From positions 211,625 to 275,624 of the forward strand of contig NZ_LMDY01000016.1 in NCBI RefSeq assembly GCF_001425905.1: a DNA stretch of 64,000 nt, in the 5' to 3' direction. Both the position numbers and the translations under genes were made by a program. Source of the DNA: Methylibium sp. Root1272. Its GTDB lineage: Bacteria; Pseudomonadota; Gammaproteobacteria; Burkholderiales; Burkholderiaceae_C. This document shows, in pieces, positions 45,718 to 59,789 of this stretch. Numbering within the stretch: position 1 is the stretch's first letter; each line of letters opens with the position of its first letter. The notes beneath the pieces are model-generated. The model searched no databases, was not told where the DNA came from, and saw nothing but the letters and a program-made list of their open reading frames with translations.

Positions 45718-46178
45718 GCAGCCACCTCGGCGATCAGCTCGATCTCGACGCAGGCGCCCAACGGCAATTGCGCCACGCCGAAGGCGCTGCGGGCGTGGGC
45801 GCCGCGGTCGGCACCGAACACCTCGCCGATCAGCTCGGAGGCGCCATTGGTCACCAGGTGGTGCTCGGTGTAGGTGGGCGCGCTGTTGACGAGGCTCATC
45901 AGCTTGACGATGCGCACCACGCGTTCCAGGTCGCCGCCGACCGCGGCGTTCAGCGTGCCCAGCAGGTCGATCGCCACGGCCCGTGCGGCGGCCTTGCCGG
46001 TGTCGGTGTTCATGTCGGTGCCCAGTTGGCCGACGTGCGGCTTGCCCTCGCGCTTGGCGATGTGGCCGGACAGGAAAACCAGGTTGCCGCTGCGCACGAA
46101 GGGCACGTAGGCGGCGGCCGGCACGGCGACCGGCGGCAGCACGATACCGAGGTCTTTGAGACGTTGCTGGATCGACAT
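45714..46178 (-). CDS. RidA family reactive-intermediate deaminase
   Basis: Protein of 154 aa of the YjgF/YER057c/UK114 group (Rid subfamily). Relevant motifs are NLVFLSGHIAKREGKPHVGQLG, ERVVRIVKLMSLVNSAPTYTEH, and the C-terminal ARSAFGVAQLPLGACVEIEL with the conserved Arg and the catalytic-site Pro/Gly. It likely removes enamine/imine intermediates from PLP chemistry. Some Rid subgroups lack deaminase activity, so activity is inferred. It is coupled with dsbB. Confidence 0.9.
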   Translation of the reverse strand: MSIQQRLKDLGIVLPPVAVPAAAYVPFVRSGNLVFLSGHIAKREGKPHVGQLGTDMNTDTGKAAARAVAIDLLGTLNAAVGGDLERVVRIVKLMSLVNSAPTYTEHHLVTNGASELIGEVFGADRGAHARSAFGVAQLPLGACVEIELIAEVAA

Positions 46179-46279
46179 GATGGAGGCTCCTTTTCGCGGG
46201 CGACGATCCTACCGCGCGGCCCGTCACCCCAGTCGTGCAGGGCCTGCCGGTCGGCGCATCGGCTTCCTACACTCGACCG

Positions 46280-48820
46280 ATGCCCTCGTTTCCGCCGCTG
46301 CCGGGCCTGCGACTGCTGGCCGCCGGTGCCGGTGTGGTGCTGGGATCGTCCCTGCAGTTGCAGCAGGCCCGGCTGTGGCTGCCGGTTCACTACACCGCGC
46401 TCTCGGCGCTGGGCCTCGCGGTGTTGGTTCTGCTGTTCGGCCTCGATCGTCGCGGTCCGCTGCGAGGAAAGGCCCACGTGCTTGCGCTGGCCATCGTGCC
46501 GGCCCTGGCCGCGGCGAGTTTCGGCGTGACGGGCCTGCGCGCTGGCGAGCGCCTGGCCGAGCAACTGCCGGCCGAACTCGAGGGCCGCGATCTCGCGGTG
46601 ATCGGCGTGATCGCCGGGCTGCCGCAGCGCTCGCCCGAGGCCTGGCGATTCCACTTCGAGCCGCATTCGGCGCGCATCGGCGACCGCGTGATCGATCTGC
46701 CGTCCCGCTTCTCGCTCGGCTGGTACGCCACGCCCGACGGCGCCGAACTGCCCGCGCTGCGCGCCGGCCAGCGCTGGCAGCTCACGCTGCGCCTGAAGCG
46801 CCCCCACGGCCTGTCGAATCCGCACGGCTTCGACTACGAGCTCCATCTCTTCGAGCAGGGTGTGCGCGCCACCGGCTCGGTGCGCACGGTGCACGACACG
46901 CCCAACCGCCTGCTCGGAGACGGCGAGGGCCACGTCGTCGACCGCCTGCGGCAATCGGTGCGCGACGCGATCACGGCGCGCGTGGCCGATGCCTCGTCGG
47001 CCGGCGTGCTGGCCGCGCTGGCGGTGGGCGACCAGGCCGCGATCGAGCGCGACGACTGGGCGCTCTATCGCCAGACCGGCGTCGCACACCTCATGTCCAT
47101 CAGCGGCCTGCATGTCACGATGTTCGCGTGGCTCGCGGGTCTGGGCGTGGACGCACTGTGGCGTCGCAGCCGCCGTGCGATGGGGGCCTGCCCGGCGCCG
47201 CTGGCAGCGCGCTGGGGCGGCCTGGCGGCGGCCTGCGCCTATGCAGTGTTCGCTGGCTGGGGTGTGCCGGCGCAGCGCACGGTGCTGATGCTGGCCAGCG
47301 TCGTCATCCTGGGGGCGGCCGGATTGCGCTGGAGCTGGCCGCTGGTCTGGACGGCGGCCATGGTCGTCGTGACCGCGATCGATCCCTGGGCCCTGCTGCA
47401 GCCGGGCTACTGGCTGTCCTTCGCGGCCGTCGGCCTGTTGCTGGCCTCGGGCGAGGCGCGCGGACTGGTCGCAGCCACCAGCGGGCTGGCGACGGAACCG
47501 ATGCGGCTGCGCTGGCAGGGCGCTGCGGCGTGGCTGGTCCGGCTGCTGTCCGGCGGTCTGCGCACGCAGGCCATCGCGACGCTGGGTCTCGCACCCTTGA
47601 CGCTGGTGTTCTTCCAGCAGTTGTCGCTGGTCGGCTTTGCCGCCAACCTGGTCGCCATCCCCGTCATCACGCTCGGCGTCACGCCGCTGGCGCTGCTGGG
47701 CGTGCTGCTGCCGCCGTTGTGGGGGCCGGCAGCCTGGACGGTGGCGCAGCTGAACGCCGGGCTGCAGTGGCTGGCCACGCCGGACTGGGCGGTCTGGTCC
47801 GTACCGGCCGCCGCACCGTGGGCCGTGGCCTTCGGCCTGCTCGGCGCCGCGCTCGCCCTGCTGCCGTTGCCCTGGACGCTGCGGGCCCTCGGCCTGCCGC
47901 TGCTGCTGCCCCTGCTCGCGCCCGCCGTGCCGCGGCCGGCAGAGGGCGCCTATGACATGACGGTGATCGACGTCGGCCAGGGGACTTCGGTGCTGCTGCG
48001 CACCGCGCGCCACGCGCTGCTCTACGACACCGGGCCGCAGTACGCGCGCGAAGCCGATGCCGGCGGGCGGGTGCTGCTGCCGCTGCTGCGCTCGCTGGGC
48101 GAGGAACGCCTGGACCTGCTGATGCTCAGCCACCGCGACAGCGACCACGTGGGCGGCGCGGCCACCGTGCTGCGCGGCCTGCCGGTGACGCGCCTGGCGA
48201 GTTCGCTCGAGGCGGGCCATGGCCTGCTGGCGCTGGCCGGCGCGCTGGGCGTCGATCGTGAGCCCTGCGTCGCGGGCCGGCAATGGACCTGGGACGGCGT
48301 GCAGTTCGAGCTGCTGCACCCGACCGCCGAGGCCCTGGCGTCGGCAGAGCGGGTGAAGACGCGGCCCAACACCCTGAGCTGCGTGCTGCGGGTCAGCGGC
48401 CGCTGGGGTGGGCAGGTGCACACGGTACTGCTGACCGGCGACCTGGAGCGCGAGCAGGAGGCGCGCCTGGTGGCCCAGCACGGCCGGGCGCTGGCGAGCG
48501 AGGTGCTGCTGGTCCCTCACCATGGCAGCAAGACCTCGTCCAGCGCGGCCTTCCTCGACGCGGTGGCGCCGCGCATGGCGGTCGTGCAGGCCGGCTATCG
48601 CAACCGTTTCGGCCATCCGGCACCCGAGGTGCTGGCGCGTTATGCCGCGCGCGGTATCGAGGTCCTCGACAGCCCGCGCTGCGGTGCCTGGCGCTTCGGG
48701 CCGATGGGCGCCGCCTGCTGGCGTCCACAGGTCCGGCGCTATTGGCATCATCCTGACGCTGACAGCACGCACAATGGCGTGGAAGTTGCTAACCCTGTCG
48801 GGCCGGAATCGACCGACTGA
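46280..48820 (+). CDS. comEC: DNA uptake channel ComEC
   Basis: Membrane channel (846 aa) for single-stranded DNA during natural transformation. It comprises an N-terminal DUF4131 region, the Competence domain with about eight to ten helices (TGVAHLMSISGLHVTMFAWLAG is its hallmark), and a C-terminal metallo-beta-lactamase domain with VIDVGQGTSVLLRT and SHRDSDHVGGA. The MBL motif is complete, so the nuclease-like domain may be active. ATG 46280 is preferred over the longer frame. Confidence 0.95.
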   Translation: MPSFPPLPGLRLLAAGAGVVLGSSLQLQQARLWLPVHYTALSALGLAVLVLLFGLDRRGPLRGKAHVLALAIVPALAAASFGVTGLRAGERLAEQLPAELEGRDLAVIGVIAGLPQRSPEAWRFHFEPHSARIGDRVIDLPSRFSLGWYATPDGAELPALRAGQRWQLTLRLKRPHGLSNPHGFDYELHLFEQGVRATGSVRTVHDTPNRLLGDGEGHVVDRLRQSVRDAITARVADASSAGVLAALAVGDQAAIERDDWALYRQTGVAHLMSISGLHVTMFAWLAGLGVDALWRRSRRAMGACPAPLAARWGGLAAACAYAVFAGWGVPAQRTVLMLASVVILGAAGLRWSWPLVWTAAMVVVTAIDPWALLQPGYWLSFAAVGLLLASGEARGLVAATSGLATEPMRLRWQGAAAWLVRLLSGGLRTQAIATLGLAPLTLVFFQQLSLVGFAANLVAIPVITLGVTPLALLGVLLPPLWGPAAWTVAQLNAGLQWLATPDWAVWSVPAAAPWAVAFGLLGAALALLPLPWTLRALGLPLLLPLLAPAVPRPAEGAYDMTVIDVGQGTSVLLRTARHALLYDTGPQYAREADAGGRVLLPLLRSLGEERLDLLMLSHRDSDHVGGAATVLRGLPVTRLASSLEAGHGLLALAGALGVDREPCVAGRQWTWDGVQFELLHPTAEALASAERVKTRPNTLSCVLRVSGRWGGQVHTVLLTGDLEREQEARLVAQHGRALASEVLLVPHHGSKTSSSAAFLDAVAPRMAVVQAGYRNRFGHPAPEVLARYAARGIEVLDSPRCGAWRFGPMGAACWRPQVRRYWHHPDADSTHNGVEVANPVGPESTD

Positions 48821-48856
48821 CACCGGCACGCACTGCCCGTCCCGAAGGAGAGTCTC

Positions 48857-51800
48857 TTGTCGATTCACGTCGCGCTGAACCACGTCACGCACTACCGCTA
48901 TGACCGGCGCGTTGCGCTCGGCCCCCAGGTGGTCCGCCTGCGCCCGGCGCCACATTGCCGCACACCGATCCTCAGCTACTCGCTGCGCGTCGAGCCTGTC
49001 GATCATTTCGTCAACTGGCAACAGGACCCGTTCGCGAACTACCTGGCGCGTCTGGTGTTCCCCGAAAAGACCACCGAGTTCAAGATCACCGTCGATCTCG
49101 TCGCCGAGATGTCGGTCTACAACCCCTTCGACTTCTTCCTCGAACCCAGCGCCGAGAATTTCCCCTTCAGCTACGAAGAGGGCCTCAAGCGCGAACTCGC
49201 GCCCTACCTCGTGACCGGCGAGCCGACGCCGCGCTTCAAGGCCTTCGTCGACAGCGTGCCGCGCAAGACGCAGCGCACCATCGACTTCCTGGTCGGCCTG
49301 AACCAGCGCCTGCAGAGCGACATCAGCTACCTGATCCGCATGGAGCCCGGCGTGCAGACGCCCGAGCAGACGCTGGAGAACCGTTCGGGCTCCTGCCGCG
49401 ACACCGGCTGGCTGATGGTGCAGGCGCTGCGCCACATGGGCCTGGCGGCGCGCTTCGTGTCGGGCTACCTGATCCAGCTCAAGCCCGACGTGAAGGCGCT
49501 CGACGGCCCGAGCGGCGCCGAGACCGATTTCACCGATCTGCACGCCTGGTGCGAGGTCTACCTGCCGGGGGCCGGCTGGATCGGCCTCGATCCCACCTCG
49601 GGCCTGATGGCCGGCGAGGGCCACATCCCGGTGGCCTGCACGCCCGAGCCGTCGAGCGCGGCGCCGGTCGAGGGTGGCGTCGACGAGAGCGAGGTCGTGT
49701 TCACCCACTCGATGAGCGTCTCCCGCATCCACGAATCGCCGCGCGTGACCAAGCCGTATACCGAAGAGCAGTGGGGCGAGGTGCTGTCGCTCGGCGAGCA
49801 GGTCGACCTGCAGCTGAAGGCGCAGGACGTGCGACTCACACAGGGCGGCGAGCCGACCTTCGTATCGGTCTACGACCGCGAAGGCGCCGAGTGGAACACC
49901 GCCGCACTCGGTCCGACGAAGCGCGGCTTCGCCAACGAACTGGTGCAACGCCTGCGCGCGCGCTACGGTGTGGGCGGCTTCCTGCACTTCGGCCAGGGCA
50001 AGTGGTACCCGGGCGAGCAGCTGCCGCGCTGGGCGCTGAGCATCTTCTGGCGCGCCGACGGCGAACCGTGCTGGATCGACCCCACCCTGTTCGCCGACGA
50101 GCGCCAGCCCACCGGCTACAGCGAGGTCGAGTCCAAGGCCTTCATCGAGCTGCTGGCGCGCAAGCTCGGCCTGGCCACCGACTACATCCAGGCCGGCTAC
50201 GAGGACACCTGGTACTACCTGTGGCGCGAGCGCCGCCTGCCGGTCAACGTCGATCCCTTCGATGCGCGGCTCGACGACGAACTGGAGCGCGCCCGCCTGC
50301 GCAAGGTGTTCGACCAGGGGTTGACCAAGGTCGTCGGCTACATGCTGCCGATCAAGCGCGAGCCGGGCGCGCCGGGCCTGGTCGGGCCGAGCTGGACCAC
50401 TGGCCCGTGGTTCTTCCGTGACGAGCGCATGTACCTGATGCCCGGCGATTCGCCGATGGGCTACCGGCTGCCGCTCGATTCGCTGCCCTGGGTCACCAAG
50501 GGCGACTTTCCTTACCTGATCGATGCCGATCCATTCGCGCCGGCCGGGCGACTGCGCTCGGTCGCCGCGCTGCGGGCGCAGTACGGCGAGCACGCCTTCC
50601 GCGGGGCCGATGCCGATGCGGCCGGTCTGGCCAGCGGCGACGCCAGCGCTTCGGCGCTGGCCGGGGCCGCGGCAATTGGTGCCGGCGGCCTGGGCGGCGC
50701 GCCGGGTGTGGCGCAGCCTGCTGGCGCGGGCCTGGGTGCTGGCGCTGGCGCCGGTGCGAGCGGTTCGCCGCGCGCTGCCGCGGCCCGCCACGGTCTGACG
50801 CATGCGCCGGCCCGCTTCGAATCGGCGGCCTGGATCACGCGGACCGCGATGTGCGTCGAGGTGCGAGGCGGCATCCTGTACGTCTTCATGCCGCCGCTGG
50901 AACTGCTGGACGACTACCTCGACCTGCTGTCCGCGGTGGAGGCCACGGCCGCGGCGCTGGGCATCAAGCTCGTGCTCGAGGGCTATCCGCCGCCGCGCGA
51001 CGTGCGGCTGAAGATGCTGCAGGTGACGCCCGATCCCGGCGTGATCGAGGTCAACATCCATCCGGCCTCGAGCTGGGAGCAACTGGTCGACCACACCGAG
51101 TTCCTCTACGAGGCGGCGCACGAGACGCGCCTGTCGACCGAGAAGTTCATGCTCGACGGCCGCCACACCGGCACCGGCGGCGGCAACCACTTCGTGCTCG
51201 GTGGTGCGACACCGGGCGACAGCCCCTTCCTGCGCCGGCCCGACCTGCTGGCGAGCCTGCTGGCCTACTGGCACAACCACCCCAGCCTGTCCTACCTGTT
51301 CTCGGGCATGTTCATCGGCCCGACCAGCCAGGCGCCACGCATCGACGAGGCGCGCAACGACCAGGTGTTCGAACTCGAGATCGCGCTGAAGGAGATCGAG
51401 AACCAGACCTCGCGCTTCGGCCAGGTGCCGCCGTGGATGGTCGACCGGAGCTTGCGCAACATCCTGATCGACGTCACCGGCAACACCCACCGCGCCGAGT
51501 TCTGCATCGACAAGATGTACTCGCCGGACGGCCCCACCGGCCGCCTGGGCCTGCTGGAACTGCGCGCCTTCGAGATGCCGCCGCACGCGCGCATGAGCCT
51601 CGTGCAGCAGCTGCTGCTGCGCGCGATGATCGCGCGCTTCTGGCGCACGCCCTACACCGGCGGCAGCACCACGCGGCTCACGCGCTGGGGCACCGAGCTG
51701 CACGACCGCTTCCTGCTGCCGACCTTCGTGCAGATGGACTTCGCCGACGTGCTGGCCGAACTGCGCCAGGACGGCTTCGCCTTCGATCCGGCCTGGTTCG

Positions 51801-52360
51801 CGCCGCACTTCGAGTTCCGCTTCCCGATCATCGGCGAGGTCACGGTGGCCGGCATCGAGCTGACGGTGCGGACCGCGCTCGAGCCCTGGCACGTGATGGG
51901 CGAGGAGGGTGCGCCCGGCGGCACCGTGCGCTATGTCGATTCGTCGCTGGAGCGCGTGGAGGTCAAGGCGACCGGTCTGAACGGCAACCGCCACGTGGTC
52001 ACCGTCAACGGCTGGGCGCTGCCGCTGCAGCCCACCGGCCGGGTCGGGGAGTTCGTGGCGGGCGTGCGCTACAAGGCCTGGGCGCCGCCGTCGGCACTGC
52101 ACCCGACGATCCCCGGCCATGCGCCGCTCACCTTCGACATCGTCGACAGCTGGATGAGCCGTTCGATCGGGGGCTGCCGCTATCATGTGGCGCATCCTGG
52201 TGGTCGCAACCATGACAGCTTCCCGGTCAACGCCTACGAGGCCGAAAGCCGACGGCTGGCGCGCTTCTTCAAGCTCGATCACACGCCGGGCAAGATGAAG
52301 GTCCAGCCGGCCCAACCGAGTCGCGAGTTTCCCTTCACCCTCGATCTGCGCCACCTCTGA
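48857..52360 (+). CDS. Transglutaminase-like/DUF2126 fusion protein
   Basis: Large cytosolic protein (1167 aa). Residues 1-290 form a bacterial transglutaminase N-domain plus protease-like fold with intact triad Cys180 (RSGSCRD), His229 (DLHAWC) and Asp245 (GLDPTSG). Residues about 310-1165 are DUF2126 (COG4196; QGGEPTFVSVYDREGAEWN, RLPVNVDPFD, GGGNHFVLGG, EKFMLDGRHTGTGGG). A Gly/Ala-rich linker occupies about residues 584-650. It starts at TTG 48857 with AAGGAG 7 bp before. It is first in a run with two ATP-grasp and two alpha-E proteins. Together they resemble a predicted peptide-synthesis/peptide-modification system of unknown product. Confidence 0.9.
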   Translation: MSIHVALNHVTHYRYDRRVALGPQVVRLRPAPHCRTPILSYSLRVEPVDHFVNWQQDPFANYLARLVFPEKTTEFKITVDLVAEMSVYNPFDFFLEPSAENFPFSYEEGLKRELAPYLVTGEPTPRFKAFVDSVPRKTQRTIDFLVGLNQRLQSDISYLIRMEPGVQTPEQTLENRSGSCRDTGWLMVQALRHMGLAARFVSGYLIQLKPDVKALDGPSGAETDFTDLHAWCEVYLPGAGWIGLDPTSGLMAGEGHIPVACTPEPSSAAPVEGGVDESEVVFTHSMSVSRIHESPRVTKPYTEEQWGEVLSLGEQVDLQLKAQDVRLTQGGEPTFVSVYDREGAEWNTAALGPTKRGFANELVQRLRARYGVGGFLHFGQGKWYPGEQLPRWALSIFWRADGEPCWIDPTLFADERQPTGYSEVESKAFIELLARKLGLATDYIQAGYEDTWYYLWRERRLPVNVDPFDARLDDELERARLRKVFDQGLTKVVGYMLPIKREPGAPGLVGPSWTTGPWFFRDERMYLMPGDSPMGYRLPLDSLPWVTKGDFPYLIDADPFAPAGRLRSVAALRAQYGEHAFRGADADAAGLASGDASASALAGAAAIGAGGLGGAPGVAQPAGAGLGAGAGAGASGSPRAAAARHGLTHAPARFESAAWITRTAMCVEVRGGILYVFMPPLELLDDYLDLLSAVEATAAALGIKLVLEGYPPPRDVRLKMLQVTPDPGVIEVNIHPASSWEQLVDHTEFLYEAAHETRLSTEKFMLDGRHTGTGGGNHFVLGGATPGDSPFLRRPDLLASLLAYWHNHPSLSYLFSGMFIGPTSQAPRIDEARNDQVFELEIALKEIENQTSRFGQVPPWMVDRSLRNILIDVTGNTHRAEFCIDKMYSPDGPTGRLGLLELRAFEMPPHARMSLVQQLLLRAMIARFWRTPYTGGSTTRLTRWGTELHDRFLLPTFVQMDFADVLAELRQDGFAFDPAWFAPHFEFRFPIIGEVTVAGIELTVRTALEPWHVMGEEGAPGGTVRYVDSSLERVEVKATGLNGNRHVVTVNGWALPLQPTGRVGEFVAGVRYKAWAPPSALHPTIPGHAPLTFDIVDSWMSRSIGGCRYHVAHPGGRNHDSFPVNAYEAESRRLARFFKLDHTPGKMKVQPAQPSREFPFTLDLRHL

Positions 52361-52377
52361 GTCTCGATCCCGCCGCC

Positions 52378-55050
52378 GTGCAGCAGTCTTCGCTCGAATT
52401 CGACGCTTCCGGCGGCTGGCATTCCGATGCGGTGCTGCACGGCGTGCTTCACGCCGCGCGGCGGGCCGATCCGGGCCACTACGACGAACTGTTGCAGGAC
52501 ACCGGTCAGGCGCTGCGCGAGCGCTGGCAACACTTCTTCGAGCTGCTGGGCGCCGACGGGCTGAGCGGCCTGGACCGGCGCGCCGGCCAGATCGCGCAAC
52601 AGATCCACCGCAACGGCGTGACCTACAACGTCCACCAGCCGGCCGGCGTCGGCGGCGAGAGCGTCAAGCGGCCGTGGTCGCTGGGCGTGCTGCCGCTGCT
52701 GATCGAGCCGGCCGACTGGCAGGTGATCGAGGCCGGCATCGCCCAGCGCGCGCGCCTGCTCGAGGCGATGCTGGCCGACTGCTACGGGCCGCAGCACCTG
52801 CTGCAAGAGGGACTGCTGCCCCCGGCCCTCGTGCTGGGCCATCCGAGCTACCTGCGGCCGCTGCACGGCATTGCGCCGGCCGGCGGGGTGCGGCTGCATG
52901 TGCTGGCCTTCGACATCGCGCGCGGGCCCGGTGGCGAGTGGTCGGTGGTGTCGCAGCGCAGCCAGGCGCCGTCCGGTCTGGGCTATGTGCTGGAGAACCG
53001 GCTGATCGTGTCGCGCCAGTTCCCCGAGGCCTTCCGCGAGCTGCGCGTCGAGCACATCGCCTCGAGCTACCGCAGCCTGCTCGACTCGCTGCTCGGGCCG
53101 GCCTCGGTGATCGCCGCGGCCGACGGCAGCGCGACGCCACGCCTCGCGCTGCTGACCCCGGGACCCTACAACGAGACCTATTTCGAGCAGGCCTACCTGG
53201 CGCGCTACCTCGGCTTGCCGCTGGTCGAGGGCGGCGACCTGACGGTGCGCGACGACCGCCTCTACCTGAAGACCGTGCAGGGCCTGGAGCCGGTGCACGG
53301 CCTGCTGCGGCGGCTGGACGACATCTGGTGCGATCCGCTCGAACTGCGCGCCGACTCCGCCCTCGGCGTGCCGGGTCTTCTGCAGGTGCTGCGCGCCGGC
53401 CGGCTGGTGATGGCCAATGCGCTGGGCACGGGTTTCGTCGAGTCGCCGGGCATGCTGGGCTTCATGCCGGCGATCTCGCGGCGCTTGCTCGGCGAGCCGC
53501 TGGCGTTGCCGGCACTGGCCAGCTGGTGGTGCGGCGAGGGCGCGGCCTGGCGGGCCACCCGCGGCGAACTGGCGGCCCGCGTGATCCGGCCCACCTACCA
53601 GGGTGTGCGGGGCCGCAGCTTCGAGCCGCAGATCGGCGGCACGCTGCCGCCGGCCGCGCACGAGCAATGGCGCGCGCGCATCGAGGCCGAGCCCGACGCC
53701 TACACGCTGCAGCGCTACCTGCCGTTCTCGCAGACGCCGTGGTGGGAGTCGGGCAGCTTCCTGCCGCGAACGGCGATGCTGCGCGTCTATGCCATCGCCG
53801 ACGGCCGCGGTGGCTACCGCGTGCTGCCCGGGGGCATGACGCGCATCGCGGCGCGCGATCCGCACATCGTGTCGATGCAGCACGGCGGCGCCAGCCTCGA
53901 CACCTGGGTGCTGCGCGAGGGCGCGGTCGACACCTACTCCATGTTGCCGCAGCGCCTGCGGCCGGAGGAGATCGCGGTGCACCAGCGGCCGGTGTCGAGC
54001 CGCACCGCCGAGAACCTGTTCTGGATGGGGCGCTACACCGAACGCACCGAGCAGCTGGTGCGGCTGGCGCTGGCCACCGCGGCACTGGTCGAGGACGACG
54101 ACGACACGCCGTCGGCGGTGCTCGACGCGATCTCCGAGCTGACGCAGCGCAGTGGCCTGGCACCGACCGGCGTGCCGTCGCTGACGCAGTCGCCGCGGGT
54201 GTTCGAGCGCTCGGTGGTCGCCGCGCTGGCCGACCCCGAAGACCACCACAGCATCGCCTACAACCTGGCCGCGCTCGACCGCGTGGCCGGATCCTTGCGC
54301 GAGCGCCTGTCGATCGAGCACGGGCGCCTGGTCCGCTCGATGGTCGAAGACTTCCACGCCCGGGTCACGAGGGCAATGACGCCGGTACCCGCCGGCAACG
54401 ACGACGAGGATGGCGAGAGCGAGCAGGCGATTCCGGCCGTGCCCGGGCTCGCCACCGACACGATGCGTGGCGCGCTCGAGCACCTGGCGAGCCAGCTCGC
54501 GGCGGTGACAGGCGCACAGAGCGACCGCATGACGCGCGACGATGGCTGGCGCCTGCTGACCGTCGGGCGCCAGGCCGAGCGCCTGATCGCGATGAGCGGC
54601 ACGCTGCGCTGCTTCTTCGAGGCTGGCGCGGTGCACAGCGCCCACGGCTTCGACCTGCTGCTCGACCTGTTCGACAGCAGCCTGACCTACCGCGCGCGCT
54701 ATCCCGGCCGCCAGGAGGCGCTGGCGCTGCTCGACCTGCTGGTCATCGACCCGGCCAACCCGCGCGCGCTGGGCTGCGTGCTGCGCCGCCTTCGCACCGA
54801 GCTGGCCAAGCTGCCCGGCAGCGCGGGTTCGGTGGAGGAGATGCTGGGTCTGCTGCCGCCGTTCGGCGTCGGCACGACGCTGGTCGAGCTGTGCCGCAAG
54901 GCCGAGCCCGGCCAGGAGTCGGGGGTCGACGACGAGCTGGTGGTCGCGCTCGCCGACCGCCTGGCCGAAGCCGGAGCGCGGCTCTCCGACGACGTGGGGC
55001 GGCGCTATTTCGCGCTCGCCGGCCTGCATGAACAGCATCTTTCGGTCTGA
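52378..55050 (+). CDS. ATP-grasp/alpha-E fusion protein
   Basis: 890-residue fusion. The first about 520 residues are the circularly permuted ATP-grasp (COG2308; NGVTYNV, GLGYVLENRLIVSRQFPEAF, LLTPGPYNETYFEQAYLARYLGLPLVEGGDL, PGGMTRIA). From about residue 535 follows the helical alpha-E domain (COG2307), beginning SSRTAENLFWMGRYTERTEQL. GTG 52378 starts 17 bp after the DUF2126 gene. The next gene overlaps by 23 bp. In most genomes the two domains are separate genes, as they are again at 56061-58477, so this locus holds both forms. Confidence 0.9.
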   Translation: MQQSSLEFDASGGWHSDAVLHGVLHAARRADPGHYDELLQDTGQALRERWQHFFELLGADGLSGLDRRAGQIAQQIHRNGVTYNVHQPAGVGGESVKRPWSLGVLPLLIEPADWQVIEAGIAQRARLLEAMLADCYGPQHLLQEGLLPPALVLGHPSYLRPLHGIAPAGGVRLHVLAFDIARGPGGEWSVVSQRSQAPSGLGYVLENRLIVSRQFPEAFRELRVEHIASSYRSLLDSLLGPASVIAAADGSATPRLALLTPGPYNETYFEQAYLARYLGLPLVEGGDLTVRDDRLYLKTVQGLEPVHGLLRRLDDIWCDPLELRADSALGVPGLLQVLRAGRLVMANALGTGFVESPGMLGFMPAISRRLLGEPLALPALASWWCGEGAAWRATRGELAARVIRPTYQGVRGRSFEPQIGGTLPPAAHEQWRARIEAEPDAYTLQRYLPFSQTPWWESGSFLPRTAMLRVYAIADGRGGYRVLPGGMTRIAARDPHIVSMQHGGASLDTWVLREGAVDTYSMLPQRLRPEEIAVHQRPVSSRTAENLFWMGRYTERTEQLVRLALATAALVEDDDDTPSAVLDAISELTQRSGLAPTGVPSLTQSPRVFERSVVAALADPEDHHSIAYNLAALDRVAGSLRERLSIEHGRLVRSMVEDFHARVTRAMTPVPAGNDDEDGESEQAIPAVPGLATDTMRGALEHLASQLAAVTGAQSDRMTRDDGWRLLTVGRQAERLIAMSGTLRCFFEAGAVHSAHGFDLLLDLFDSSLTYRARYPGRQEALALLDLLVIDPANPRALGCVLRRLRTELAKLPGSAGSVEEMLGLLPPFGVGTTLVELCRKAEPGQESGVDDELVVALADRLAEAGARLSDDVGRRYFALAGLHEQHLSV

Positions 55051-55987
55051 GCCTCAGGCGCCGTCGCCGCGTCCGGCCGACGCCCTTCGCGGGCCGGTCG
55101 AGCTGGAGGTCGTGCACGTCACCGAATACCGCTATTCCAGCCCGGTCGAGCTGGCGCAGCACATCGCCGTGCTGCGGCCGCGCGACGAGGCCGCACAACA
55201 GCTTCTGGGCTTCGAGATGGAGATCGAGCCGGCGCCGGCGCAGCAGCACGACGACTGCGACGTCTACGGCAACAGCCGCCGCGTGTTCACGCTGACGGCT
55301 TCGCACCAGCACCTGCGGGTCTGCGCCACCAGCCGCGTGCGCGCCCACGCGCCCGAGCGCCCGCCGGCCGCGGCGCTGCCCTGGGAGGCCTGCCGCGCCC
55401 ACTGGCGCTACGAGTCGGGCCGCCCGCTGGACGCGGCGGTCGAGTTCACCTTTCCGTCCACGCTGGTGCCGCACCACGCCGTGCTGCGTGACTGGGCCCT
55501 GCCGTCCTTCCCGCCGGGCCGCGGCATCGACGAGGCGGCCACCGAGCTGATGCACCGGCTGCACGCCGATTTCACCTACGCGCCGCACAGCACCGAGGTC
55601 GGCACGCCGGTGCTGCAGGCCTTCGAGCAGCGGCGCGGCGTGTGCCAGGACTTCGCCCACGTGATGATCGGCAGCCTGCGGGCGCTCGGCCTGTCGGCCC
55701 GCTACGTCAGCGGCTACCTGCTGACCGAGCCGCCGCCCGGCCAGCCGGCGTTGCAGGGAGCCGATGCCTCGCATGCCTGGGTGGCGGTGGCGGTGCCGCG
55801 CGAGGACGGCTCGGCGGACTGGCTGGAGCTCGACCCGACCAACGATTGCGAGGCCGGCCTGACCCATGTGCGCCTCGCACTGGGGCGCGACTATGCCGAC
55901 GTGACGCCGCTGTGCGGCGTGATCCGTGGTGGCGGCCGCCACCAGCTCGATGTGCGCGTCGGGACGCGCGTGGTGCCCGCAGCATGA
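55028..55987 (+). CDS. Transglutaminase-like protein
   Basis: Papain-like transglutaminase/protease (319 aa; COG1305). An N-terminal beta domain (EVVHVTEYRYSSPVEL, HIAVLRPRD) precedes the catalytic core with Cys206 (GVCQDFAH), His249 (ASHAWVAV) and Asp269 (ELDPTND), so the triad is complete. It has no signal peptide, which indicates a cytosolic role. It overlaps the upstream ATP-grasp/alpha-E gene by 23 bp. It probably hydrolyses or transfers amide bonds on the product of the neighbouring ligases. Confidence 0.92.
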   Translation: MNSIFRSEPQAPSPRPADALRGPVELEVVHVTEYRYSSPVELAQHIAVLRPRDEAAQQLLGFEMEIEPAPAQQHDDCDVYGNSRRVFTLTASHQHLRVCATSRVRAHAPERPPAAALPWEACRAHWRYESGRPLDAAVEFTFPSTLVPHHAVLRDWALPSFPPGRGIDEAATELMHRLHADFTYAPHSTEVGTPVLQAFEQRRGVCQDFAHVMIGSLRALGLSARYVSGYLLTEPPPGQPALQGADASHAWVAVAVPREDGSADWLELDPTNDCEAGLTHVRLALGRDYADVTPLCGVIRGGGRHQLDVRVGTRVVPAA

Positions 55988-56060
55988 GCCCGCTTCGACC
56001 GGCAAAAGCGGGCTGCTTGGCACAATCTCTGCTAGCTCCAGTCTCAGCGTGGGAGACACG

Positions 56061-57497
56061 ATGAAGAAGTTCTACGACGAGATGCATGCCAACGGCGACA
56101 AAGTGCGCGAGCACTACGCCGGCTACGAACGCTGGCTCGCCCAGCAACCGCACGAGTCCATGAAGGGCCACCGCGACGAGGCGGAGATGATCTTCCGCCG
56201 CGTCGGCATCACCTTCGCGGTCTACGGCGCGAAGGACGAGGACGGCTCCGGCACCGAGCGGCTGATCCCCTTCGACCTGATCCCGCGCATCATCCCTGCG
56301 CAGGAATGGCGCGAGATGGAGAAGGGCCTGAAGCAGCGCGTCAACGCGCTCAATCGCTTCATCCACGACGTCTACCACGACCAGGAGATCATCAAGGCCG
56401 GCATCGTGCCGGGCGAGCAGGTCTTCAAGAACGCACAGTTCCGCCCCGAGATGATGGGTGTGGACGTGCCGGGCAACGTGTACTCGCAGATCGCCGGCAT
56501 CGACATCGTGCGTGCCGCCAACCCGGACGGCTCGGGCAACTACTACGTGCTCGAGGACAACCTGCGCGTGCCCAGCGGCGTGAGCTACATGCTCGAGAAC
56601 CGCAAGATGATGATGCGGCTGTTCCCCGAGCTGTTCAGCAGCCACCGCGTCGCGCCGGTCGCTCACTATCCCGACCTGCTGCTCGACACCCTGCGCGCCG
56701 TGGCGCCGCCCGGCGTGGCCGAGCCGACCGTGGTGGTCATGACGCCGGGCATGTACAACTCGGCCTACTTCGAGCACGCCTTCCTGGCGCAGCAGATGGG
56801 CGTGGAGCTGGTCGAAGGACAGGACCTGTTCGTCAAGGACAACTACCTGTACATGCGCACCACGCAGGGCCCGCGCCGCGTCGACGTGATCTACCGGCGC
56901 ATCGACGACGACTTCCTCGACCCCAAGGCCTTCCGCGCCGACTCGACCATCGGCTGCGCCGGCCTGCTGTCGGTCTACCGCGCCGGCAACGTGAATCTGT
57001 GCAACGCCATCGGCACCGGCGTGGCTGACGACAAGTCGATCTACCCCTACGTGCCGAAGATGATCGAGTTCTACCTCGGCGAGAAGCCGATCCTGAACAA
57101 CGTGCCGACCTACCAGTGCCGCGAGAGCGAGGACCTGCAGTACGTGCTGGCTCACCTGGGCGAACTGGTCGTGAAGGAAGTGCACGGCGCCGGCGGCTAC
57201 GGCATGCTGGTCGGCCCGGCCGCCAGCAAGGCGGAGATCGAGGAGTTCCGCGTGCAACTGGTCGCGAACCCCAACAACTACATCGCGCAGCCCACGCTCG
57301 CGCTGTCGACCTGCCCCACCTTCGTGGAGAGCGGCATCGCGCCGCGCCACATCGACCTGCGGCCCTTCGTACTTTCGGGCAAGACGGTGCAGATGGTCCC
57401 GGGCGGGCTGACGCGGGTGGCGTTGAAGGAAGGCTCCCTGGTCGTCAACTCGTCGCAGGGCGGCGGGACCAAGGACACCTGGATGCTCGAAGCGTGA
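56061..57497 (+). CDS. Circularly permuted ATP-grasp protein
   Basis: Stand-alone ATP-grasp ligase of 478 aa (COG2308). Motifs are GVTFAVYG-like VGITFAVYGAKDED, EDNLRVPSGVSYMLENRKMM, VVVMTPGMYNSAYFEHAFLAQQMGVELVEG, IYRRIDDDFLDP, NAIGTGVADDKSIYPYVPKM, and the C-terminal KEVHGAGGYGMLVGP with ATP-binding residues. ATG 56061 follows GGGAGACACG. It is paralogous to the N-terminal part of the 52378 protein (about 30 percent by eye). It probably forms an amide bond to a small carboxylate or peptide. Confidence 0.93.
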   Translation: MKKFYDEMHANGDKVREHYAGYERWLAQQPHESMKGHRDEAEMIFRRVGITFAVYGAKDEDGSGTERLIPFDLIPRIIPAQEWREMEKGLKQRVNALNRFIHDVYHDQEIIKAGIVPGEQVFKNAQFRPEMMGVDVPGNVYSQIAGIDIVRAANPDGSGNYYVLEDNLRVPSGVSYMLENRKMMMRLFPELFSSHRVAPVAHYPDLLLDTLRAVAPPGVAEPTVVVMTPGMYNSAYFEHAFLAQQMGVELVEGQDLFVKDNYLYMRTTQGPRRVDVIYRRIDDDFLDPKAFRADSTIGCAGLLSVYRAGNVNLCNAIGTGVADDKSIYPYVPKMIEFYLGEKPILNNVPTYQCRESEDLQYVLAHLGELVVKEVHGAGGYGMLVGPAASKAEIEEFRVQLVANPNNYIAQPTLALSTCPTFVESGIAPRHIDLRPFVLSGKTVQMVPGGLTRVALKEGSLVVNSSQGGGTKDTWMLEA

Positions 57498-57520
57498 GCC
57501 GGGCCTGAGGAGACACGACC

Positions 57521-58477
57521 ATGTTGTCAAGAACCGCAGACCACCTGTTCTGGATGGCCCGCTACACCGAGCGCGCGGAGAACACCGCCCGCATGCTCGA
57601 CGTGAACTACCAGACCTCGCTGCTGCCGCAGTCCAGCGAGGCCACCGAGCAGGGCTGGCGCGGCCTGCTCAGCATCAGCGAGCTGACGCACGACTACCAC
57701 CGCCTGCACGACAGCGTGAACCCGCACGAAGTCATGGAATTCATGGTGTGCGACGAGTCCAACCCGTCGAGCATCCACTCCTGCCTGCGCGCGGCGCGCG
57801 AGAACGCCCGCGCGGTGCGCGGCACGCTGACCACCGAGGTGTGGGAGACCGCCAACACCACCTGGCTGGAATTCAAGCGCCTGATCGCCGATGGCAGCTT
57901 CAAGCGCGATCCGGCCGACTTCTTCGAGTGGGTGAAGTTCCGCTCGCACCTGTCGCGCGGCGTGACGCTGGGCACGATGCTGCAGGACGAGAGCTTTCAC
58001 TTCCTGCGCATCGGCACCTTCCTCGAGCGAGCCGACAACACCGCGCGCCTGCTCGACGTGAAATTCCACGGCGCGCAGTCCGAGTTCTTCGGCGTGCGCG
58101 AGCAGCGCGAGCCGGTCGAGGTCGACTTCTACTACTGGAGCGCGATCCTGCGCTCGGTGTCGGGCTTCGAGGTCTACCGCAAGGTCTACCGCAACGTGAT
58201 CCGCCCCGAGAAGGTGGCCGAACTGCTGATCCTGCGGCCCGACATGCCGCGCTCGCTGGCGGCCTGCATGGACGAGGTGGTCGGCAACCTGAAGATGGTG
58301 GCGAACGAGCAGAGCGGCGAGACGCTGCGTCGCGCCGGCCGGCTGCGCGCCGACCTGAGCTTCGGTCGCATCGACGAGATCCTCGCCACCGGCCTGCATG
58401 CGTTCCTCACGCAGTTCCTCGACCGCGTCGGCGACCTGGGCGTTGGCATCAGCCGCGACTTCCTGGTGCCGGTCTGA
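57521..58477 (+). CDS. Alpha-E domain protein
   Basis: All-helical protein of 318 aa (COG2307). It starts LSRTADHLFWMARYTERAEN, the conserved Glu/Arg pattern of the alpha-E family, and has ERADNTARLLDVKFH in the middle. It is always encoded beside the ATP-grasp protein and may act as a partner or carrier; no enzyme activity is known. It lies 23 bp after the ATP-grasp gene and ends the five-gene run. It is paralogous to the C-terminal half of the 52378 fusion. Confidence 0.92.
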   Translation: MLSRTADHLFWMARYTERAENTARMLDVNYQTSLLPQSSEATEQGWRGLLSISELTHDYHRLHDSVNPHEVMEFMVCDESNPSSIHSCLRAARENARAVRGTLTTEVWETANTTWLEFKRLIADGSFKRDPADFFEWVKFRSHLSRGVTLGTMLQDESFHFLRIGTFLERADNTARLLDVKFHGAQSEFFGVREQREPVEVDFYYWSAILRSVSGFEVYRKVYRNVIRPEKVAELLILRPDMPRSLAACMDEVVGNLKMVANEQSGETLRRAGRLRADLSFGRIDEILATGLHAFLTQFLDRVGDLGVGISRDFLVPV

Positions 58478-58484
58478 CACGGAC

Positions 58485-58502
58485 GCAGCCCGTCTGGGCT
58501 GC
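58485..58502. terminator. Hairpin between convergent alpha-E and ffs
   Basis: GCAGCCC (58485-58491) and GGGCTGC (58496-58502) form a 7-bp stem with the loop GTCT. No T-run follows on either strand. It lies between two convergent units and may serve both. Confidence 0.55.
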
Positions 58503-58524
58503 GTGGTGCGAAGGGAAGAGGGTG

Positions 58525-58618
58525 ACGAGCCCGACCCCGGCACTGGAGGCTAACGGTTAGGGCTGCTTCGTTCCCGACCTGACCCGGTTGGCCGCGCCCC
58601 CATGCGGGGAGGCCCGTC
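58525..58618 (-). ncRNA. ffs: 4.5S signal recognition particle RNA
   Basis: On the minus strand the sequence contains GGTCAGGTCGGGAACGAAGC followed by AGCCC, the conserved SRP RNA domain IV (symmetric loop and GNAR-type apical part) that binds Ffh. The flanks GGGCCTCCCCGCATGGGGGC and GCCGGGGTCGGGCTC are complementary and close the long hairpin. Length is about 95 nt, as in other betaproteobacteria. Exact ends are estimated from the pairing. Confidence 0.9.
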
Positions 58619-58673
58619 ACCGTGGATTGTAGGTGACGGGTCGGGCGTCGCCGGATCGAAGGGTGAAAGGCCG

Positions 58674-59789
58674 TCAGCGCAACTGCAGGTCGTCGTCGCC
58701 GAACCGCACGCCGATCGGCTCGATCAGCAACTGCTTCGGACCCGCCTCGACCGTGCCCGCCACCCAGGCGGCAACACCTTGCTCGCGTGCGACCTCGACG
58801 GTGCGCTGTGCATCGGCGGCCTTCACGAACAGCGCGAAGCCGGCGCCCATGTTCAGCGTGCTGTAGGCCTCGCGCGCGTCGTGGCCGGCGTGCTCGGCGA
58901 TGAAGCTCAGCACCGGCGGCACCGGTGGCACGGTGTGGATGCGGTAGGTGTGCGTGGCCGGGTGGCGCAGCAGCTTGCGCCAGCCGTGGCCGGTGATGTT
59001 GGCGCTGTAGTGCGGCACGATCTGCGCGTCCCACAGCGCCTCGGTCACCGGCGAGTACAGCGTGGTCGGCGCGAGCAGCGCCTCGCCGTAGTTCAGGCCC
59101 GGCGCCACCTCGGTGAGGTAGCCCTGCGGCAGGCGTTCGACCAGCTTGCGCGCGAGGCTCAGGCCGTTGGCATGGATACCGCTGGAGGCGAGCAGCACGA
59201 TCGCGTCGCCCGGTGCCAGCGCATCGCCGACCGACAGCCGCGACTTCGGATTGATCAGCCCGGTGCAGGAGGCCGCGAGGTCGATGCGGCCGGCCTCCAC
59301 GATGCCGGCCAGCGCCGGCGTCTCGCCGCCGCCCCAGGCCACGCCGCAGGTGTCGCAGGCCTGCTTCCAGCCCGCCACCAGCGCCTGGGCGCGCTGCGCG
59401 TCGGCGAACCATTCGCTGCCGCCTGCTGCCCAGTAGGCCTGCACCACCAGCGGCGTGGCGCCGACGGTGATCAGGTCGTTGATCGCCATCGCGATGGTGT
59501 CCTGCGCGATGCCGGCGTAATAGCTCTGGCCGGTCAGCGCCTTCATCTCGTCGGCGACGAGTGCCTTCGAGCCCAGGCATTCGACGATGCTGGCCAGGTA
59601 GAACGGCCCGACGTCGACCACGTAGGCCGACTCTCCGCGCGACGCGGCCACTTCGCCGAAGCCGTGCGCGGCGAGGTTCTTCGCGGTGTCCTTGGCGGCG
59701 CGTTGCGCGGCCACTTTCAGCGGGTCGATCAGGTCGTAGTTGACGCCGGCCTGTTCGTAGCTCAGCGGAGGGGGTGGGGGCGTGGTCAT
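58674..59789 (-). CDS. AIR synthase-related protein (PurM-like fold)
   Basis: PurM-superfamily protein of 371 aa. Its PurM/ThiL/SelD fold is visible in PLSYEQAGVNYDLID, GGGETPALAGIV, DAIVLLASSGIHANGLSLAR, SANITGHGWRKLLRHP and TLNMGAGFALF. It is longer than canonical PurM (about 345 aa) and lacks the standard KxxVGTK stretch; DVGPFYLAS replaces it. It may still form AIR, or process another ATP-dependent substrate. It sits between ffs and dnaX, away from other purine genes. Confidence 0.8.
   Translation of the reverse strand: MTTPPPPPLSYEQAGVNYDLIDPLKVAAQRAAKDTAKNLAAHGFGEVAASRGESAYVVDVGPFYLASIVECLGSKALVADEMKALTGQSYYAGIAQDTIAMAINDLITVGATPLVVQAYWAAGGSEWFADAQRAQALVAGWKQACDTCGVAWGGGETPALAGIVEAGRIDLAASCTGLINPKSRLSVGDALAPGDAIVLLASSGIHANGLSLARKLVERLPQGYLTEVAPGLNYGEALLAPTTLYSPVTEALWDAQIVPHYSANITGHGWRKLLRHPATHTYRIHTVPPVPPVLSFIAEHAGHDAREAYSTLNMGAGFALFVKAADAQRTVEVAREQGVAAWVAGTVEAGPKQLLIEPIGVRFGDDDLQLR

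Follow-up and report, generated by a model that had tools for sequence, protein, structure and literature searches.

A system for peptide tagging or peptide synthesis, which contains an ATP-grasp enzyme, a glutamine synthetase (GS)-like ligase, an Anbu-type peptidase and an alpha-E protein, is said to have been predicted by Iyer et al. in 2009. The five genes described here (genes 1 to 5, all on the + strand) occupy positions 48857-58477 of a stretch of 64,000 nucleotides from Methylibium sp. Root1272, which is called the window below. This gene set is already known, in that it is part of the system proposed from comparative genomics: the circularly permuted (CP) ATP-grasp, alpha-E, transglutaminase-like (TGase) and DUF2126 domains are shared, and Anbu is encoded in the genome. 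The locus differs from the predicted system in two respects. Anbu is unlinked, and is directly preceded by a gene that we take, from its translation, to be MutS-like; and a fused and a split module adjoin one another, both preceded by a sigma54-type box of their own. The residues of an active ligase are retained in the split ATP-grasp domain, whereas the fused one has lost several of them and is predicted to be a pseudo-ligase. We give a probability of roughly 0.55 to the explanation that the locus is a Burkholderiales two-module form of the Anbu/alpha-E/CP ATP-grasp/GS-like amidoligase system, in which a pseudo-ligase is included and which is controlled by sigma54 and NtrC.

Among the described relatives, the Anbu operons of Yersinia bercovieri and Pseudomonas contain the same split families as genes 4 and 5, according to the available portions of the two papers (PMC6376114, PMC5666114). 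Anbu is linked in these operons and is not found in the window. In addition, the third TGase that the operon has of its own was not found in this genome, because genes 1 and 3 are the only two matches to Bact_transglu_N in it. The split-type ATP-grasp of Y. bercovieri released phosphate from ATP and was not stimulated by glutamine or glutamate; ligation and hydrolysis were indistinguishable to the authors, as far as the accessible part of their paper goes (PMC6376114). The sequence-only reading of the window had stated that such sets are the subject of a comparative-genomics prediction, without an established product or target. This was borne out by the literature searched, in which neither was found, and the published activity is limited to the phosphate release mentioned above. 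The I35_5080-5083 genes of Burkholderia cenocepacia H111 are likened to the locus by description only: their products are given as DUF404/DUF407, DUF403, TGase-like and large TGase-like, and they are common targets of NtrC and sigma54, but a fused ATP-grasp/alpha-E protein is not named in the available part of that study (PMC5491218). The structure 3n6x, a putative glutathionylspermidine synthase from Methylobacillus flagellatus, matches gene 4 over its full length (748 bits). Its match to gene 2, which lacks the E-x-N motif and the glycine loop of 3n6x, is weaker (231.7 bits). The name comes from the depositors, and we are not aware of a tested function that supports it. A literature search for ATP-grasp proteins described as inactive or as pseudo-enzymes gave no result, though the point may have been published all the same.

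The five same-strand genes with the domains claimed in the sequence-only reading are all present as open reading frames (ORFs) with Pfam matches. Gene 1 (48857-52360, 1167 amino acids) encodes a TGase (Bact_transglu_N, Transglut_core) fused to DUF2126 (residues 276-1165; 1329 bits). Its start codon is TTG, which is preceded by an AAGGAG-like site. Gene 2 (52378-55050, 890 amino acids) encodes a CP ATP-grasp domain (residues 106-491; CP_ATPgrasp_2, 446.4 bits) fused to an alpha-E domain (residues 540-878; 185.2 bits). Gene 3 (55028-55987, 319 amino acids) encodes a TGase with the two Pfam domains Bact_transglu_N and Transglut_core. The split forms follow as gene 4 (56061-57497, 478 amino acids), a CP ATP-grasp protein with a CP_ATPgrasp_2 score of 558.4 bits, and gene 5 (57521-58477, 318 amino acids), an alpha-E protein with a score of 339.5 bits. 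Genes 1 and 2 are separated by 17 nt, genes 3 and 4 by 73 nt, and genes 4 and 5 by 23 nt, with an overlap of 23 nt between genes 2 and 3. No further match to Alpha-E or CP_ATPgrasp_2 was found in the genome (4.2 Mb in 19 contigs; E <= 0.001). The named best relatives of gene 4 are from Burkholderiales, e.g. Piscinibacter, Caldimonas and Ideonella.

The residues of the ATP-grasp domain were counted in 250 non-identical sequences from the window and the loci L016-L195, that is, 104 split and 146 fused copies. The window, the loci of the same family and those of named Burkholderiales contributed 110 fused and 91 split copies, and loci from the phylum 36 and 13, respectively. Segments shorter than 360 amino acids were left out, and up to six kinds of residue were listed per column. 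Gene 4 retains Asp148, Glu165, Asn167, Lys372, Gly376-Gly381 and Asn463. The set of residues of an active ligase (the lysine, the glycine loop and D/E-x-N) is thus complete in gene 4 but not in gene 2, where Ser192 and Arg194 occupy the positions of the E-x-N motif, Arg404 occupies that of the lysine, and the glycine loop is gone. The E-x-N motif (Glu165 and Asn167) is presumed to bind a metal ion (magnesium), by homology to glutathione synthetase and other ATP-grasp enzymes. Both of its residues are found in 104/104 split copies. Among the fused copies, the asparagine is found in 0/146 and the glutamate in only one (L164), still without the asparagine. The lysine at position 372 of gene 4 is kept in 104/104 split copies versus 72/146 fused ones, and the glycine loop, GAGGYG in gene 4, is replaced in the fused copies by a loop of variable length with insertions and deletions. 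Because the E-x-N motif and the glycine loop are lost, the fused ATP-grasp of gene 2 is read as a pseudo-ligase and predicted from its sequence to be inactive. Two CP ATP-grasp ligases had been proposed for the locus, a proposal that depended on the ATP-binding residues not being lost from both domains. Both domains are indeed present, and these residues are kept in gene 4, but the fused copy has lost several of them and does not bear the name of ligase well. It should be mentioned that position 376 of gene 4, the first glycine of the loop, is occupied by glutamate in 9 of the 13 split copies from outside the family; this glutamate may correspond to the third metal ligand known from glutathione synthetases.

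The predicted structure of gene 2 consists of a confident ATP-grasp domain and a helical domain, with a mean pLDDT of 91.3. In a fold search with this model, 3n6x was the top match (E 3.6e-32, TM 0.87 by target), followed by glutathione synthetases. Both E-R motifs are kept in the alpha-E part of gene 2 (Glu555/Arg556 and Glu734/Arg735). When 111 split and 90 fused rows of alpha-E were compared, many residues that are constant in the split form were missing from the fused form, e.g. Arg93, Arg97, Asn112, Arg176 and Trp206 of gene 5. The mean column identity was 36% for gene 2 (58 sequences) versus 53% for DUF2126 (52 sequences). A tree was made from a random subset of 40 of the available fused ATP-grasp copies and from 28 split copies, including four from Anbu operons. 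The two kinds form separate clades across the phylum, with supports of 0.845 and 1.0. A recent tandem duplication of one ATP-grasp gene is ruled out by these clades, and the word tandem, which had been applied to the locus and suggests a duplication, does not describe its origin.

The distribution of the two modules was surveyed in 120 genomes of the family, where DUF2126 was found in 80 and Alpha-E in 105. Alpha-E is present in all 80 of the DUF2126 genomes, and its split type, defined by a score of >= 220 bits, in 77 of them. The converse, a split-type alpha-E without DUF2126, is seen in 24 of the 120 genomes. This means that the fused module accompanies the split module, and not vice versa. 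No alpha-E of the split type was found in G008, G050 and G101, the other three of the 80; one of these genomes is 65% complete and two are 93% complete, and G101 contains an alpha-E piece of 172 residues (199.5 bits) close to a contig end. Around DUF2126, the fused ATP-grasp/alpha-E gene is found in 57 of 60 stretches from the family, and a separate homologue of gene 3 in 56 of those 57 (in L033 about 8 kb off). Eight of the 60 (L023, L029, L036, L041, L049, L062, L065 and L066) resemble the window in having the split pair downstream. It lies upstream, at times on the opposite strand, or outside the stretch in the others, many upstream pairs being cut by the ends of the stretches. In the phylum, DUF2126 was found in 120 of 398 sampled genomes and the fused gene in 37 of 40 stretches around it; these 37 stretches place the fused gene in 27 further families. 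The locus is therefore an ordinary member of a widespread gene set, and the presence of both modules together is the rule in the family. It is quite possible, if short of probable, that the fused protein is a conserved pseudo-ligase, which has kept its fold and gained an SxRxQAPSG-like motif of its own, and which works only with the active split pair. A one-ligase system might in this way have been turned into a two-stage conjugation machine controlled by nitrogen starvation, with the second stage carried out by DUF2126 and the TGases.

The DUF2126 part of gene 1 (49682-52357) is a putative GS-like amidoligase, judging from Pfam, conservation and the predicted fold. Pfam annotates the domain as a putative amidoligase. 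Its model has a pLDDT of 77.6, and the first fold match is GmaS (gamma-glutamylmethylamide synthetase); among the 50 matches listed, 43 are GmaS or glutamine synthetases, with low TM values. A comparison of the DUF2126 sequence with the PDB gave no match at E <= 1. Since the domain carries the amidoligase label in Pfam and structures of the GS family came first, though without significance, in the fold search, DUF2126 may, with caution, be regarded as the second ligase, and a second ligation, if any, seems more likely to take place there than in the fused ATP-grasp.

Boxes of the sigma54 type were sought with the pattern TGGCAC-N5-TTGCW, with GG and GC fixed and <= 2 mismatches, in the 250 nt upstream of each gene. 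The scan omits ORFs of fewer than 240 amino acids, genes whose upstream region is shorter than 250 nt and upstream sequences identical to another one, so the number of sequences varies by gene. Six odd frames starting in the fused-type alpha-E, one of which has a box, were left aside, and the family loci (L016-L075) and the named loci (L076-L155) may share genomes. In the window, the box TGGCACAATCTCTGCT (56018-56033, + strand), with 1 mismatch, is located 43 nt before the start of gene 4, in the sole long gap of the cluster, and the box TGGCGTGGAAGTTGCT (48775-48790, + strand), with 2 mismatches, is located 82 nt before the start of gene 1. In the relatives, a box was found before gene 4 in 75/90, gene 1 in 68/112, gene 3 in 11/113, gene 2 in 9/103 and gene 5 in 0/100 cases, and in 43/1800 shuffled upstream regions of gene 4. 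Nearly all of the gene 4 boxes (70 of the 75) are 36-80 nt ahead of the start. The box of gene 1 is linked to the upstream neighbour: it is present in 67/77 copies for which the 600 nt before the gene contain the end of neither a split-type alpha-E nor a TGase, versus 1/35 for which they do (Fisher p 1.3e-18, with relatives that are non-independent). The entries of this table become 67, 14, 1 and 30 with alpha-E alone as the neighbour, and 66, 8, 2 and 36 with a limit of 1500 nt. This pattern of gene 1 and gene 4 boxes is that predicted from one sigma54 promoter per transcription unit, and a -24/-12 element is conserved before both units in the relatives. The support for the boxes is comparative and does not come from the pattern alone.

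In addition, an NtrC-like box with <= 2 mismatches was found before gene 4 in 15/90 relatives and in 1/270 shuffles; the corresponding counts were 4/111 for gene 1, 0/113 for gene 3, 1/103 for gene 2 and 2/103 for gene 5. A gene for the sigma54 DNA-binding domain is present in the genome. No sigma70-type promoter was found in 48600-58700. A possible terminator in the gap between genes 3 and 4 was considered and rejected: the hairpin there is no better than those of shuffled sequences (z -0.86, 34/200 shuffles equally good), and no terminator-like site was seen. Published work on nitrogen control mostly agrees with these results and is divided on the dependence on rpoN. PP_2685 and PP_2688 of Pseudomonas putida were higher on nitrate than on ammonium, according to the accessible text of a study on the sensing of nitrogen limitation (PMC8050072). 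A study on RpoN of Bradyrhizobium, in the section available, lists a sigma54 site located 247 nt upstream of a gene for some kind of ATP-grasp protein (PMC13207237).

The only match to PF00227 in the genome is an HslV-like gene, adjoined by a frame that we take, from its translation, to be HslU-like. The idea that Anbu was absent from the genome was rejected when a search with the L196 Anbu protein as the query found a homologue with 46% identity at L206 7089-7916 on contig C4. No sigma54-type box with <= 2 mismatches was found in the 300 nt before this gene (the best has 3). Anbu would thus stand outside the control that is suggested for genes 1 to 5. In the 120 genomes of the family, both Anbu and alpha-E were found in 97, alpha-E only in 8, Anbu only in 1 and neither in 14. 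The order ATP-grasp/alpha-E/TGase/Anbu is seen in four of the seven stretches around proteasome-fold matches (L196, L197, L198 and L202). In another stretch, a proteasome-fold match of 212 amino acids (L200 4965-5603) is not Anbu-like, and no ATP-grasp, alpha-E or TGase match was found in its 10 kb.

The gene content, residue loss, clades, module dependence, boxes in relatives, and presence and co-occurrence of Anbu were computed; from these we infer the chemistry, the roles of the partners with their complex formation, and the regulation in Methylibium sp. Root1272, as follows. The core module would be formed by the split ATP-grasp (gene 4), which would activate a carboxylate with ATP and join it to an amine, and by its partner, the alpha-E protein (gene 5). 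The add-on module would be formed by the TGase-DUF2126 protein (gene 1), the fused ATP-grasp/alpha-E protein (gene 2) and the TGase (gene 3). The pseudo-ligase of gene 2 is probably a scaffold, a substrate-presenting subunit or a regulatory subunit, and the GS-like DUF2126 might be the remaining ATP-dependent site of this module. The cysteines of the TGases may carry out amide transfer or hydrolysis, and Anbu, encoded elsewhere, would be the hydrolase. In nitrogen limitation, both transcription units would be activated by NtrC, each from its own sigma54-type box. The gene set is frequent in the phylum; it spans a number of chemistries of the amide bond and also involves a relative of the proteasome. 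If one ATP-grasp copy is no ligase, gene 4 and DUF2126 are the proteins to assay, with gene 2 as a subunit, and the conserved boxes, of a promoter type that is frequently active when nitrogen is scarce, point to nitrogen limitation as the first condition for a search for the product.

Several observations weigh against this two-module explanation. Sequence loss alone is no proof that gene 2 is inactive, and some pseudo-kinases act by other chemistry. Profile comparisons of the E-x-N motif with two Escherichia coli proteins were non-significant: it was aligned to E-N-N of YgiC at a probability of 0.2%, and Gss was not aligned at this motif. None of the 204 fold matches of DUF2126 was significant (best E 0.023), as might be expected if the domain is circularly permuted. 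The sigma54 pattern alone occurs at chance level, with 26 matches in the window versus 34 expected, and 22 in the genome versus 22 for the reversed pattern. The gene 1 box in the window has a rival site at -239, also with 2 mismatches, 10/77 stand-alone copies of gene 1 are without a box, and no NtrC-like site upstream of gene 4 of the window comes closer than 4 mismatches. All counts based on relatives are from non-independent samples. In nitrogen limitation, an rpoN mutant of P. putida still showed a rise of PP_2686-2688 by 14- to 20-fold, compared with 11- to 15-fold for the wild type, and the urt genes act in the same way in the same table, which belongs to the accessible part of that study (PMC7801951). 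The rise in the mutant means that sigma54 is not strictly required there, or that the strain or medium is misleading. The proteins of the Anbu operon are described as constitutive, present in moderate amounts and dispensable without stress in the portion available of PMC5666114. In the corresponding portion of PMC6376114, the operon proteins of Y. bercovieri formed no specific complex with Anbu, and no peptidase activity of Anbu was found.

The alternative that survives best, though it seems doubtful, is that the set is mainly catabolic: TGase-like peptidases or amidases and Anbu would reclaim the nitrogen of an unusual amide or peptide, which the ATP-grasp would re-ligate or activate. The intact papain-type triads are consistent with this. 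As the sequence-only reading had noted, both TGases of the window have them, Cys180, His229 and Asp245 in gene 1 and Cys206, His249 and Asp269 in gene 3, and they are conserved in the relatives. In 151 rows of the gene 1 type, Cys is found in 150, His in 149 and Asp in 149, the remainder being gaps; in 133 rows of the gene 3 type, the counts are 132, 131 and 125, with one His replaced by Val, two Asp replaced by Cys, and gaps otherwise. The co-occurrence with Anbu also fits a catabolic role, as do the nitrogen-related expression in two genera, as far as the accessible parts of the papers cited above describe it, and the association that these domains show with those of urea metabolism in metagenomes of marine origin, reported in the available part of PMC3597751. 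However, the lack of Anbu peptidase activity in the available text of PMC6376114 speaks against it, and ATP-dependent ligase domains would be costly for scavenging, which is an argument and not data.

It is unlikely that the fused domain has become an enzyme of altered chemistry, in which the SxRxQAPSG-like motif forms a metal-independent site or a different phosphoryl or nucleotidyl site, for which some pseudo-kinases are a precedent. Arginine occupies the position of the E-x-N asparagine in 138/146 fused copies (109/110 from the family and named loci, 29/36 from the phylum), and glutamine is found two residues after it in 108/110 and 29/36 copies, respectively. The replacement is thus itself conserved, beyond what simple decay predicts; however, the lysine and the glycine loop, which would hold the phosphates, vary freely, with gaps. 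The view that the fused and split copies are two working ATP-grasp ligases for two successive or parallel ligations, which the sequence-only reading had suggested, is very improbable and unsupported: both CP_ATPgrasp_2 scores are far over the Pfam cut-off, the fused model retains the ATP-grasp fold, and the equivalents of Asp148, Arg434 and Arg452 are mostly kept in the fused copies (Asp in 138/146, otherwise Glu), but the E-x-N pair is incomplete in 146/146 of them, half have lost the lysine, and the glycine loop is lost with insertions and deletions.

Anti-phage defence was also considered and rejected: the five proteins have no PADLOC match at E <= 0.01, and NCBIfam likewise gave none. The neighbouring genes, named by reading their translations, are presumably housekeeping genes, ComEC-like upstream and PurM-like and DnaX-like downstream. 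An open frame of 2114 amino acids on the - strand (46010-52354), which lies opposite gene 1 and the genes next to it, is most likely an effect of the high GC content and not a gene. Divergent DUF2126 copies, in frames of about 714-751 amino acids and with scores far below the usual, were seen at G063:C39:41221-43344, G050:C38:5519-7549 and G381:C1:3612606-3614702. These are possibly a separate DUF2126 lineage; one of the genomes, G063, has two Anbu matches. In two relatives, an extra TGase adjoins the module (L018 8963-9787 and L029 11105-11899).

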